Positions 53,034-63,383 of a DNA stretch of 64,000 nt are shown here, in pieces. Origin of the DNA: Alphaproteobacteria bacterium (lineage in GTDB: Bacteria > Pseudomonadota > Alphaproteobacteria > RF32 > CAG-239); NCBI GenBank assembly GCA_028706255.1, contig JAQWBS010000001.1, forward strand, positions 263,411 through 327,410, given 5' to 3'. Every line of letters starts with the position of its first letter. The stretch's first letter is position 1. Both the position numbers and the translations under genes were made by a program. The notes beneath the pieces were generated by a model, which saw only the letters and a list, made by a program, of their open reading frames with translations, was not told the origin of the DNA and made no database searches.

Positions 53034-53720
53034 TTACCAAACTTCTTCAAGTTTAATTTTTTTCTGTAAAAATGCTTTATGTGCTTCAAGTTCTTCAGCA
53101 GAGAGATTAAAATTTCTGGCAACCCTAAAACTTTTACCAGACATATTTTCCACAAACTGCGTTTTTGTTCCACTATTTTTATTATCTTGCAACATTGTTG
53201 GTTCAACCCCACCAATAAGTTCAAGATAAACTTTTGCTAATAATTCAGAGTCAATTAAAGCCCCGTGCTTTGTTCTATCAGAAGCATCAATTTCAAAACG
53301 ACGACAAAGTGCATCAAGGCTTGCTCTTGCTCCAGGAAATTTATTTCTAGCAATTTCCAAGGTATCAATTACCCTATCCCATTCCAAAGTTGAACGATTA
53401 ATTGCTTTAAGTTCATAATTCAAAAAATTAATATCAAAAGCAGCATTATGCGCAATAAGCTTTGCATCTTCACCAATAAACTCTAAAAATTTATCCGCAA
53501 CTTCTTCAAAAACTGGATAATCTTTTAAAAATTCATATGAAAGCCCATGAACCTTAAAAGCTTCTTCAGGAACTTCTTTGCACGGATTGATATATTGGTG
53601 ATATTCCCTACCAGTTGGTAAATGATTAATCAGCTCAATTGCTCCAATTTCAACTAATCTTTCGCCATCTTCAGGTTTAAAACCTGTTGTTTCCGTATCA
53701 AAAACAATTTCTCTAACCAT
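53034..53720 (-). CDS. dnaQ: DNA polymerase III epsilon (proofreading exonuclease)
   Basis: 228 residues. DEDDh exonuclease: ExoI VFDTETTGF (Asp/Glu), ExoII LIAHNAAFDINFLNYEL, ExoIII TKHGALIDSELLAKVYLEL. The C-terminal helical tail binds the alpha subunit. It overlaps coaE by 8 bases, the usual alphaproteobacterial pair near the origin. Confidence 0.96.
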   Translation of the reverse strand: MVREIVFDTETTGFKPEDGERLVEIGAIELINHLPTGREYHQYINPCKEVPEEAFKVHGLSYEFLKDYPVFEEVADKFLEFIGEDAKLIAHNAAFDINFLNYELKAINRSTLEWDRVIDTLEIARNKFPGARASLDALCRRFEIDASDRTKHGALIDSELLAKVYLELIGGVEPTMLQDNKNSGTKTQFVENMSGKSFRVARNFNLSAEELEAHKAFLQKKIKLEEVW

Positions 53721-54300
53721 TATATTCTAACCCATTTATAATATTTATTATTTCAAGTTTTAATAAATTTGATGTTGTGTTTGTATCAATAACAACATCA
53801 GCAAGCTCTTTTTTTGTTTTATTATCAAGTTGAACTGCAACAATTTGTTCAAAATGTTCTACTGAAACATTATCTCTTTTCATCACGCGTTGTTTTTGAA
53901 TTTCATAATCAACATCAGCAACAATAATGAAATCACAATATTTTTCCCAACCCATTTCAAAAAGAAGAGCCACATCAATAAAATAAGTATAATTAGTTTT
54001 TGAATGTTTATTAATATAATATTTTAGTGTTTTATCTAGAAAAGGGTGGACTAAATCTTCAAGTTTTTTAAGTTCTTTTTTATCATTAAAAACAACTTTT
54101 CTAAGTTTTCTTTTATTAAATTTTCCATTTTCAACAGATTGCGGAAAATTTTTCATAATCACTTCAATAAAGTCTTTTTTATTATATAATCTTCTCACCC
54201 AACCATCAACGTCATAAACGCTGAAACCAAGCTTATTCACAATTTTAGCAATTGTCGTCTTACCGCAACCGATTGAACCTGTGATTGCCACTAATTTCAT
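53713..54300 (-). CDS. coaE: Dephospho-CoA kinase
   Basis: 195 residues. The last step of coenzyme A synthesis. Walker A ITGSIGCGKTTIAKI (6-20), DVDGWVRRLYNK, HPFLDKTL, DVALLFEMGWEKYCDFIIVADV and RVMKRDN are family motifs. It is the first gene left of the candidate origin and is transcribed away from it. Confidence 0.95.
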   Translation of the reverse strand: MKLVAITGSIGCGKTTIAKIVNKLGFSVYDVDGWVRRLYNKKDFIEVIMKNFPQSVENGKFNKRKLRKVVFNDKKELKKLEDLVHPFLDKTLKYYINKHSKTNYTYFIDVALLFEMGWEKYCDFIIVADVDYEIQKQRVMKRDNVSVEHFEQIVAVQLDNKTKKELADVVIDTNTTSNLLKLEIINIINGLEYNG

Positions 54301-54764
54301 TTTTTATATACCTTTTTATTAACAGGGGATGTGTATAAATCTGACAACATCTGGGATATTATAATTTAATACCCATAATATAAAAATTAATATACGCACT
54401 TATTAACAAGTTGATAAGTTTTGTTAACCTATTATTAATCTGTTTATTAAAATTTTATTAACATTCTAGTAAATTAGAACTTGGAATATTTAACTCAATG
54501 AATTTTATTATTTTTTAAAATTTTTGATTCGCTCCTTTTACATTGTTATTAACAATCTATTAATCTCTGTATAAAATTGTGAATAAAATTTAATTCACAT
54601 CAATCACAAGGATCTACCTACTACAACTAACTTTTAAAAATATATATTAGGGGCTGTTCATTTCATTTGACAGAAACCGATTTAAATTTTATACATAATT
54701 CATAAATATAAATCACATCTCTAATTTTTCAAAAAATCATCATTTATAAAATTCAAGGTATTTC
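54301..54764. other. Candidate chromosomal replication origin (oriC)
   Basis: 464 bases without a gene between divergent coaE and rho. Two exact matches to the DnaA box TTATNCACA lie on the minus strand: TTATACACA (54330-54338) and TTATTCACA (54578-54586). Four copies of the near-match TTATTAACA are on the plus strand (54316, 54400, 54455, 54546), one of them in a near-palindrome CTTATTAACAAGTTGATAAG (54399-54418). One-mismatch boxes occur at 54591 and 54689. A CtrA-like TTAA-N7-TTAA lies at 54447-54461. Extremely AT-rich tracts lie throughout. From known genomes, alphaproteobacterial origins commonly fall between a coaE-dnaQ side and a rho-mnmE-mnmG side. It must also hold promoters for coaE and rho. 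Confidence 0.65.
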
Positions 54765-56018
54765 ATGTATTTAAAAGATTTAAAAGACAAATCTCCTAAA
54801 GAGTTACTCACTCAAGCAGAAGAATTAAATATTGAAGAAGCATCTTCAATGCGTAAACAAGACCTCATTTTTGCAATTTTGAAAAAAGTTGCTTCTGAAG
54901 ATAATATCATTTATGGCGAAGGGGTAATTGAAGTTTTACAAGACGGATTTGGATTCCTACGTTCTTCTGAATCAAATTATCTTGCTAGCCCAGATGATAT
55001 TTATGTTTCTCCTTCACAAGTTAAAAAATTTGCTTTAAGAACAGGTGACACACTTGAAGGTGAGATTAGAGCTCCAAAAGATAATGAACGTTATTTTGCT
55101 CTAACTAAAGTTATTAGAATTAATTATGATGATCCTGAAAAATCTAAACTCCGTGTTAATTTTGATAATTTGACACCGCTTTATCCAAGAGAAAAACTTG
55201 ATTTTGATATCATAAACGGTGAAAAAGACTACACAACTCGTGTGATTGATTTAATTGCTCCACAGGGAAAGGGGCAACGTGGATTAATTGTTGCACCACC
55301 AAGAACAGGTAAAACAGTAATGCTTCAAAGTATTGCGCATGCGATTGCAGAAAAAAATCCTGAAATTTATTTGATGGTTCTGTTGATTGATGAACGTCCT
55401 GAAGAAGTTACAGATATGATTCGCTCTGTTAGAGGTGAGGTTATCTCTTCAACGTTTGATGAACCAGCAAGCCGTCACGTTCAAGTGGCAGAAATGGTTA
55501 TTGAAAAAGCGAAGCGATTAGTGGAAATGAAAAAAGATGTCGTTATTCTTCTAGATTCAATTACACGTCTAGGAAGAGCTTATAACACTGTCATTCCATC
55601 ATCAGGTAAGGTTCTAACTGGTGGGGTTGATGCAAACGCTCTACAACGTCCTAAACGCATTCTAGGGGCTGCTAGAAACATTGAAGAAGGTGGTTCTTTA
55701 ACAATTATTGCCACAGCTTTGATTGATACAGGTTCAAGAATGGATGAAGTTATTTTTGAAGAATTTAAGGGAACAGGTAACTCAGAAATCATTTTGGATA
55801 GAAAACTCACAGATAAAAGAATTTTCCCAACGATTGATATTACGCGTTCAGGAACCAGAAAAGAAGAGCTTTTGGTTGATAAAGCAACACTTTCTAAAAT
55901 GTGGGTTCTTCGTCGTGTCTTGATGCAAATGGGTGTAACAGACGGCATGGAATTCTTGCTTGATAAGATTTCACATTCAAAAGATAATGATGATTTCTTT
56001 ACGACAATGAATAGTTAA
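54765..56018 (+). CDS. rho: Transcription termination factor Rho
   Basis: 417 residues. N-terminal helical and OB-fold RNA-binding domain ([46 protein letters not shown]), then the hexameric ATPase: Walker [12 protein letters not shown], Walker [18 protein letters not shown]-loop [23 protein letters not shown] and R-loop [15 protein letters not shown]. First gene right of the candidate origin. Confidence 0.98.
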
Positions 56019-59572: not shown

Positions 59573-59646
59573 GATAGTCTTCCAAAAATTAAAATCAGTT
59601 TTGTATTCTATCTTGGGAGTGATTTATTTTTTCTTAAGAGGAATTG

Positions 59647-60990
59647 ATGACAAATAAAACAATTTATGCACTTTCAACAGTGAATGGAAAATCTGGGGTT
59701 GCTATTATCAGAGTTTCAGGAGCTGAAGCTTTGGCTGTTGTTAAAAAAATGACTGAGCTTGATGTTTTCAGCCTTAAATCTCGTTATGCTTATTTTACAG
59801 ATTTAAAAGACATTGTTTCACGTGGAACGTTAGATAAGTGTTTATTGTTATATTTTAAAGCACCCAATTCTTTTACTGGTGAAGACATTGTTGAGCTTCA
59901 TCTTCATGGCTCAAAAGCTGTCATTTCAAGTGTGATTAAAAACTTGTCTTCTCTTGAAAATTTCAGAATGGCGGAAGCTGGCGAATTTTCAAAGCGTGCT
60001 TTTTACAATAATAAAATGGATTTAACGGAAGCAGAAGGGTTAGCGGACTTGATTGATGCTGAAACTTCTGAACAGCAAAAGTTTGCCATTCGTCAAATGG
60101 AAGGAAGCTTGAGCAATCTTTATGAAACTTGGCGTGAAGCTTTAATTAAAATTTTGGCACATCTCGAGGCTTATATTGATTTTCCTGATGAAGAAATTCC
60201 TGATGATGTGGTTGAAAAACTTTTGAACAATGTATTTAAACTTCAAAATGAGATTAAACAACATCTTGAAAGTGATAATATTGGTGAAAGGCTGCGTGAA
60301 GGTTTCAGAGTGGTTATTGTTGGCGCACCAAATGCAGGAAAGTCAAGTTTACTAAATAATATTGCAAAGCGAGAAGTTGCAATTGTTTCAAACATTGCTG
60401 GAACAACCAGAGATGCTATCGATATTCATTTAGATTTAAAAGGATATCCAGTTGTTTTCACAGACACTGCTGGGTTAAGAGAAACAATCGAAGAAATTGA
60501 ACAAAAAGGCATTGAAATTGCGAAGTCTAAAGTGAGCTCTGCCGACCTTGTAATTTGTTTATTTGATGGTGAAAAAGAAAACATCTCCATTTTTGACAGC
60601 ATTAAAGAATTGTTTAAAAACAAGCCGATAGTCGTTGCAAATAAATGTGATAAACTAATTTCTGAACAATGTTCACAGCTTGAAAATCAAGGGTGTTTAC
60701 CAATTTGTGCAAAAACGGGTGAGGGGGTTGAAGTCTTATTAAATAAAATTTATGAAGAAATTGAACAGCGTTTCACATCTAACTCAAGCGTGCTGATTAC
60801 AAGAGCAAGATACCGTGAATATCTAAGTGATGTTTTAGAAAATTTAGAGCTATTTAATCTTGATAAGGAAATTGAACTTTCTGCCGAAGACATTCGTTTG
60901 GCAGCACGTTCTTTAGGAAAAATTACAGGAAGAATAGAGGTTGATGATATCTTAGATAAAATTTTTGGCGATTTTTGTATAGGAAAGTAG
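59647..60990 (+). CDS. mnmE: tRNA uridine-5-carboxymethylaminomethyl modification GTPase MnmE
   Basis: 447 residues from ATG 59647 (AGAGGAA upstream). N-terminal formyl-THF-binding domain (TIYALSTVNGKSGVAIIRVSG), helical domain, G domain (VVIVGAPNAGKSSLLNNIAKR, AGTTRDAI, DTAGLR, NKCD) and the invariant C-terminal CIGK. It works with MnmG, encoded just downstream, to modify U34 of tRNAs. Confidence 0.97.
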   Translation: MTNKTIYALSTVNGKSGVAIIRVSGAEALAVVKKMTELDVFSLKSRYAYFTDLKDIVSRGTLDKCLLLYFKAPNSFTGEDIVELHLHGSKAVISSVIKNLSSLENFRMAEAGEFSKRAFYNNKMDLTEAEGLADLIDAETSEQQKFAIRQMEGSLSNLYETWREALIKILAHLEAYIDFPDEEIPDDVVEKLLNNVFKLQNEIKQHLESDNIGERLREGFRVVIVGAPNAGKSSLLNNIAKREVAIVSNIAGTTRDAIDIHLDLKGYPVVFTDTAGLRETIEEIEQKGIEIAKSKVSSADLVICLFDGEKENISIFDSIKELFKNKPIVVANKCDKLISEQCSQLENQGCLPICAKTGEGVEVLLNKIYEEIEQRFTSNSSVLITRARYREYLSDVLENLELFNLDKEIELSAEDIRLAARSLGKITGRIEVDDILDKIFGDFCIGK

Positions 60991-61535: not shown

Positions 61536-63383
61536 ATGAAAAATGAATATGATGTCATTGTCATCGGCGGCGGTCACGCCGGATGTGAAGCTTGTGCAGC
61601 AGCTGCTAGAATGGGTGCTCAAACGGCTCTAATTACGCATAAGATTGACACAATTGGCGCAATGTCTTGTAATCCAGCAATCGGTGGCTTAGGGAAAGGG
61701 CATTTAGTTAGAGAAATTGATGCACTTGACGGTTTAATGGGGCGTGTCATTGATAAGGCAGGAATCCAGTTTAGAATTTTAAATGCTTCAAAAGGACCAG
61801 CAGTTAGAGGTCCTCGTGCTCAAGCGGATAGAAAGCTTTATAAAAAACACATGCTTGAAATGTTGCAAGCACAAGAAAACTTAGACATCATTGAAGCTGC
61901 TGTTGAAGGATTGCTCTTTAATGGAGAAGAAGTTTCAGGCGTTATTCTTGCTGACGGAAAAGAATTGAAAGCTAAATCAGTGGTGCTTACCTCAGGAACT
62001 TTTTTAAATGGCGTGATGTTTGTTGGTCATAAAACCTCAATAGGTGGACGTATTGATGATGTCACTTGTGTTGGTATAACACCGTATTTAAAGTCTAAGG
62101 GTGTTGAAGTAGGTAGGCTTAAAACAGGAACACCAGCAAGGCTTAATGGAAAGACAATCAATTGGGAAATTCTTGAAACACAAAGTGGCGATGAAAAGCT
62201 CATTCCTTTTTCATATTTGAATAAAGAAATTACCACACCGCAAATTAATTGCTATATTACACATACAAATGAAGAAACACACCAAATTATTCGTGACAAT
62301 TTTGATAAGTGCGCTTTGTTCTCAGGATTAATTAAAGGGATTGGTCCAAGATATTGCCCAAGCATTGAAGATAAACTTGTGAAGTTTGCAGACAAAACTT
62401 CTCACCAAATTTTTCTTGAGCCAGAAGGTTTAGACACAGATGTTATTTATCCAAATGGCATTTCAACTTCTTTGCCTGCAGATGTTCAAGAGAAATTTAT
62501 TCATACAATGAAGGGTTTGGAAAATGTTGAAATTTTGCAATATGCTTATGCCATTGAATATGACTTTGTTAATCCGCAAGAGCTTAATTCAACTTTAGAA
62601 ATTAAAAAAGTTCCACATCTTTTCTTGGCAGGACAAATCAATGGTACAACAGGATATGAAGAAGCTGCTGCTCAAGGGCTTGTTGCTGGAGCAAATGCAG
62701 CCTTGAAAGCACTAAATTCAGACAAGATATTATATGTTGATAGAAGTATGGGATATATTGGGGTGATGATTGATGATTTAATCACCAAGGGTGTTGATGA
62801 GCCTTATCGTATGTTTACTTCTCGTTCTGAATATCGTCTTTTCTTGAGAGCAGATAATGCAGACGCACGCTTAACGGAATATGGCTATCATATGGGTTTG
62901 GTTAGTGAAGAAAGATACAGTGTATTTAAACAGAAGTATGATGCAATAAATCATTATCATGAACTTGTTGAAAGTCTTTTTGTGAGTCCACAGGAGTTAG
63001 AAACTTTTGGTGTGAAGACTAAAAAAGACGGGGTTAAAAGAACTGCTTTTAATGTGATGAGTTATGATAATGTTTCACGTGAAACAGTGTTACAAATTTG
63101 GCCAGAGCTTTTTGAAATTCCTGAAGATGTTTATGAGGCAATTGAGATTGAAGCAATTTATGCGGGTTATATTAAACGTCAATTGGCTGATATTGAACTG
63201 TTTAAAAAAGACGAAAAATTACGAATTAAAGAAGATGTTGATTATAAGAAAATTGGTGGGCTTTCCAATGAAATGGTTGCTAAACTTTCTAAGGTTAAAC
63301 CTTCAACCATAGGCGAGGCCTCCCGTATTCCAGGCGTGACACCAGCAGCAATTATGGCTATTTTGAGTTTTGTAAAGAAATAG
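61536..63383 (+). CDS. mnmG: tRNA uridine-5-carboxymethylaminomethyl modification enzyme MnmG
   Basis: 615 residues. FAD-binding VIVIGGGHAGCEAC at the N-terminus, PAIGGLGKGHLVREIDALDG, RPPIxxx-type YCPSIEDKLVKFADK, GQINGTTGYEEAAAQGLVAGANAA, and the C-terminal tRNA-binding helices (EAIYAGYIKRQ, PSTIGEASRIPGVTPAAI). It forms the complex with MnmE. rsmG, parA and parB, usual next genes in alphaproteobacteria, are not in the window; a NUDIX gene follows 29 bases later. Confidence 0.97.
   Translation: MKNEYDVIVIGGGHAGCEACAAAARMGAQTALITHKIDTIGAMSCNPAIGGLGKGHLVREIDALDGLMGRVIDKAGIQFRILNASKGPAVRGPRAQADRKLYKKHMLEMLQAQENLDIIEAAVEGLLFNGEEVSGVILADGKELKAKSVVLTSGTFLNGVMFVGHKTSIGGRIDDVTCVGITPYLKSKGVEVGRLKTGTPARLNGKTINWEILETQSGDEKLIPFSYLNKEITTPQINCYITHTNEETHQIIRDNFDKCALFSGLIKGIGPRYCPSIEDKLVKFADKTSHQIFLEPEGLDTDVIYPNGISTSLPADVQEKFIHTMKGLENVEILQYAYAIEYDFVNPQELNSTLEIKKVPHLFLAGQINGTTGYEEAAAQGLVAGANAALKALNSDKILYVDRSMGYIGVMIDDLITKGVDEPYRMFTSRSEYRLFLRADNADARLTEYGYHMGLVSEERYSVFKQKYDAINHYHELVESLFVSPQELETFGVKTKKDGVKRTAFNVMSYDNVSRETVLQIWPELFEIPEDVYEAIEIEAIYAGYIKRQLADIELFKKDEKLRIKEDVDYKKIGGLSNEMVAKLSKVKPSTIGEASRIPGVTPAAIMAILSFVKK

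Follow-up and report, generated by a model that had tools for sequence, protein, structure and literature searches.

A candidate Caulobacter-type replication origin between coaE and rho in an order of uncultured gut Alphaproteobacteria

Introduction

The chromosomal origins of Caulobacter and Rickettsia are the closest described systems, and their boundary genes are hemE and COG1806 (PMC1914354). An alphaproteobacterial oriC is expected to be an intergenic region of 200 to 1000 bp with a raised AT content, to contain DnaA boxes more frequently than other DNA of the genome along with an IHF binding site, and to have boundary genes homologous to those of relatives (PMC1914354). Origins of the Caulobacter type also carry TTAA-N7-TTAA sites in a genome encoding CtrA, and a GC-skew switch is looked for at any oriC.

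Here, we analyzed the 64-kb stretch G000:C11:263411-327410 (the window), which belongs to a 1.62-Mb assembly of 16 contigs with a completeness of 99.6%. A preliminary description of the window had placed a probable origin in the gap between coaE and rho. Taken as a whole, this gap is best explained as a chromosomal oriC of the Caulobacter type, with a probability of about 94%, because the skew minimum, a cluster of DnaA boxes, parS and parAB to the right, and order-wide conservation all point to it.

Results

The candidate oriC (54301..54764; 317.7-318.2 kb of contig C11) is a 464-bp intergenic gap with 21% GC between the divergent genes coaE and rho. Its AT content is 79%, compared to ~62-71% (~29-38% GC) in 2-kb windows, and its length falls within the range of 200 to 1000 bp (PMC1914354). 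The left boundary gene coaE (dephospho-CoA kinase, TIGR00152; 53713..54300, minus strand) has its 5' end at 54300 and is followed by dnaQ (DNA polymerase III epsilon; 53034..53720, minus strand). The right boundary gene is the transcription terminator gene rho (TIGR00767; 54765..56018, plus strand), and mnmE (59644..60990) and mnmG (61536..63383) lie beyond it on the same strand. An AT-rich, gene-free gap of 464 bases and the gene order on both sides were confirmed as they had been described.

Two exact DnaA boxes are located in the gap, both on the minus strand: TTATACACA at 54330..54338, where 26/28 relatives have an exact box at the aligned position, and TTATTCACA at 54578..54586, which is not position-conserved among close relatives. 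Two exact boxes are fewer than most relatives have in the gap. A third exact box, TTATTCACA, lies on the plus strand inside the 5' end of coaE (54233..54241), 68 bp from the gap. Exact boxes TTATNCACA occur 64 times genome-wide, and the coaE/rho locus is the only place with three of them within 350 bp. When 64 boxes were placed at random, three boxes within 345 bp were obtained in 0.55% of the simulated genomes. This chance figure is modest by itself; it is the conservation in relatives that makes the case for the box cluster overwhelming.

The sequence TTATTAACA occurs four times in the window, and all four copies are within the gap on the plus strand. At the aligned positions, exact or near-boxes are found in 23, 22, 12, and 22 of the 28 relatives, respectively, for the copies at 54316..54324 (exact TTATNCACA in 12, near-box in 11), 54400..54408 (near-box in all 22), 54455..54463 (exact in 4, near-box in 8), and 54546..54554 (near-box in 21, exact in 1). 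Because the copies align with exact boxes and near-boxes in relatives, TTATTAACA is best read as a putative weak DnaA box. The copy at 54400 and an inverted partner form the near-palindrome CTTATTAACAAGTTGATAAG (54399..54418), which matches at 16/20 positions on direct reading. The two exact boxes in the gap, the four near-boxes, and the near-palindrome holding one of them were all in the preliminary description, and each was recovered; the box at 54233 was missing from its list.

The preliminary description had also mentioned one CtrA-like TTAA-N7-TTAA. Such a site is indeed present, but there are three of them, two in the fuller form TTAA-N7-TTAAC (54424..54438, minus strand; 54447..54461, plus strand) and one as TTAA-N7-TTAA (54549..54563, plus strand). 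The second overlaps the near-box at 54455, and the third has bases in common with the near-box at 54546 (54546-54563); 16 of the 29 gaps (window plus 28 relatives) have a site of this kind at or beside the position of the third. Across these 29 gaps, TTAA-Nk-TTAA was counted 49 times at k = 7, as opposed to 0-21 times at each other k from 0 to 20. Since the peak at spacing 7 is sharp, AT-richness was ruled out as the source of the CtrA-like sites. Nineteen of the 49 sites partly coincide with a DnaA box or near-box, a layout that fits a putative Caulobacter-like block of DnaA by CtrA.

The genome encodes DnaA, CtrA, CcrM, ParA, and ParB. CtrA was recognized by the equivalog NF045991 (401.8 bits versus a cut-off of 350) and is present in 40/42 genomes, and CcrM has 6pbd as its best match (E 4e-157). 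A GANTC (CcrM-type) site lies at 54526..54530 in the window. GANTC was enriched in the gaps (4.84/kb versus 1.79/kb outside), whereas seven control palindromes showed no enrichment; the 29 gaps contain 69 sites versus 16.6 expected. GATC was depleted in the same 29 gaps (4 versus 14.5 expected).

A conserved AT-rich block at 54610..54649 (plus strand) is the best candidate for the opening region, based on its position and conservation. DnaA-trios (at least three beside a DnaA box) were found in 25/47 gaps versus 14-25 in shuffled gaps and were not above the shuffles. The IHF motif WATCAN5WTR had one raw match each in the window gap and L112, three in L099, and none in L093 and L045, a signal too weak for an IHF site to be proposed.

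The cumulative GC skew of the window and the next 20 kb has its minimum at 54813, and the best change point of the third-codon-position skew is at 54200. All stretches of C11 sampled to the left of the gap had a negative third-position skew (-0.17 to -0.38), and all those sampled to its right had a positive one (+0.07 to +0.14). A skew switch is therefore observed at the site, and no competing minimum, which the preliminary description had named as the result that would speak against an origin here, appeared in the sampled stretches (~45% of the 16-contig genome). The other contigs mostly have a single skew sign, with local exceptions on C1 and C8. On C1, a local negative third-position skew lies beside positive stretches (G000:C1:20001-40000, L154) and is possibly an inversion or an acquired segment; the exception on C8 is short. 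Because of these exceptions and the sampled fraction of the genome, skew alone is noisy.

Only two exact parS palindromes TGTTTCACGTGAAACA exist in the whole genome, and both are to the right of the gap: one inside mnmG (63071..63086), 8.3 kb away, and one inside rsmG (C11:331495-331510), 13.3 kb away. In both genes, parS sits in the coding sequence and is translated as VSRET. A weaker parS-like site with 2 mismatches is located inside mnmE (59814..59829). Furthermore, rsmG, a ParA-family ATPase gene, and parB were found ~13-16 kb to the right of the gap, where a search for parAB had been suggested.

A search with CoaE alone yielded 28 named relatives having the locus, all of them uncultured Alphaproteobacteria or proteobacteria; the record titles of several name rumen or deer gut as the sample source. 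The arrangement coaE<-gap->rho was found in 28/28 of these relatives, with gaps of 458-528 bp, and in 18/20 further genomes of the order, including a second family; gaps in other genomes of the order are 410-531 bp long. The boundary genes are thus homologous to those of relatives in the sense of PMC1914354, and the conservation spans at least nine genera in two families. Most boxes keep their positions across relatives. Exact boxes in the 29 gaps numbered 77 versus 1.5 expected from first-order Markov shuffles. In 47 gaps, the box density was 5.96/kb, whereas 632 kb of flanking DNA had 0.030/kb, a difference of ~200-fold, and DnaA boxes are thus commoner here than in other DNA, as expected of an oriC (PMC1914354). 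In the two exceptions, G103 (L103) and G149 (L094), rho has been rearranged away and the DnaA-box array still adjoins coaE. A tRNA-like stretch follows the gap in G149.

The preliminary description had called coaE-dnaQ and rho-mnmE-mnmG the classic alphaproteobacterial origin context. The placement of the origin was right, but the classic boundary is hemE/COG1806 (PMC1914354), and the boundary here is coaE/rho. No match to the URO-D family, to which a hemE product would belong, was found anywhere in the study genome. In class-level outgroups, rho is separated from the gap by hemE-hemH, and coaE can be separated from it by maf/aroE. None of these genes is left at the locus described here. The order is dnaQ-coaE-aroE-maf, gap, hemE-hemH-rho in L133, and dnaQ-coaE, a gap with three boxes, then hemE-hemH-one ORF-rho in L147; the box-bearing gap of the outgroups is bounded on the rho side by hemE. 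Given this outgroup order and the missing hemE, the coaE/rho gap would most simply be the same alphaproteobacterial origin, the genes in between having been lost.

The motifs could instead make up a regulatory region, in which DnaA and CtrA control coaE and/or rho from divergent promoters while the origin lies elsewhere. The promoters of the two divergent genes must indeed lie in the gap, and DnaA and CtrA also act as transcription factors in Caulobacter. However, the skew switch and the nearby parS and parAB would then be left unexplained, a box density ~200-fold above that of flanking DNA would be surprising, and the box array has remained at coaE in the genomes with a relocated rho and is beside hemE, not rho, in the outgroups. 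The last two facts also led us to reject a box cluster serving rho transcription, and we consider the regulatory reading as a whole improbable.

An origin at or near dnaA, as in many other bacteria, is less probable still and would be a considerable surprise. The gene is on the same contig as the gap (C11:372484), ~54 kb to its right, and a dnaA far from the origin is common in Alphaproteobacteria. There is no cluster of exact boxes at dnaA, the nearest single boxes being at 355030 and 387429; the third-position skew keeps its sign (+0.07 before and +0.14 around dnaA); and the parS sites are nearer to the coaE-rho gap. Finally, a chance product of AT-rich sequence is hardly credible: the gap is 79% AT and exact boxes are hardly more frequent genome-wide than a backwards-read control (64 versus 56), but the rarity of such clusters in random placements (0.55%) is joined by the conservation found in relatives, where the boxes are in excess (77 versus 1.5) and hold their positions.

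Elsewhere in the genome, two inverted TTATCCACA boxes lie ~233 bp apart (G000:C4:50596-50837; L113:10596-10837). They were ruled out as a second origin because both are within one open frame and the skew is negative in all samples of the contig. The pair adjoins a gene resembling a DNA methyltransferase gene and others that, judged by eye, seem to come from a phage.

The gaps of genus g16 (L093, L095-L098) keep DnaA boxes, have no TTAA-N7-TTAA, and contain at most one GANTC each. CtrA is present at 86-87% identity in genomes G143, G144, and G150, and no CcrM match was found in the nearly complete genomes G143 and G149. We offer only tentatively, and as the less likely case, that control of the origin has diverged within the order, most genera keeping elements in which a conserved weak DnaA box overlaps a CtrA site, and g16 representing a loss of CtrA/CcrM gating in gut bacteria outside the Rickettsiales. 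The genus would then have retained the CtrA protein and the DnaA boxes and lost TTAA-N7-TTAA and nearly all GANTC, with some members lacking CcrM.

Discussion

For the coaE/rho gap as an oriC, we infer DnaA and CtrA binding, an opening site, gating by CtrA, timing by CcrM, and initiation at the gap itself. DnaA would bind both the exact boxes TTATNCACA and the weaker near-boxes TTATNAACA of the conserved array and then oligomerize. It would open the AT-rich DNA, probably on the side facing rho, and two replisomes would depart in opposite directions. CtrA is predicted to bind the TTAA-N7-TTAA(C) sites. As some of these have bases in common with DnaA near-boxes, CtrA would probably keep initiation blocked outside S phase, as it does in Caulobacter. 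Methylation of the clustered GANTC sites by CcrM may serve as a further cell-cycle mark, and ParB at parS, 8-13 kb away, would segregate the new origins.

The results supply an origin backed by evidence and, in its conserved locus, an origin marker that can be used throughout an order of uncultured gut Alphaproteobacteria; with such a marker, growth rates become readable from peak-to-trough coverage. They also indicate that a Caulobacter-type origin with overlapping CtrA and DnaA sites has been kept in genomes of 1.2-2 Mb that lost its usual hemE neighbor, and rules for finding origins should therefore not require hemE.

The gap resembles Cori of Caulobacter crescentus in being intergenic, AT-rich, and ~400-500 bp long, and in combining DnaA boxes with CtrA TTAA-N7-TTAA sites, some of which have bases in common with DnaA boxes or near-boxes. 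In both systems, parS and parAB are nearby, and CtrA and CcrM are encoded. Unlike in Cori, the boundary is formed by coaE and rho in a genome where hemE was not found, and many of the boxes are TTATNAACA near-boxes. Like the predicted origins of Rickettsia and Wolbachia (PMC1914354), the locus lies in a small AT-rich alphaproteobacterial genome, is intergenic and of similar length, and has DnaA and CtrA sites; in both cases, the boundary genes have changed in a lineage-specific way. Those origins keep hemE on one side, as opposed to the origin proposed here, for which the sharpest support comes from parS and parAB, the clean change of skew along the contig, and conservation across at least nine genera.
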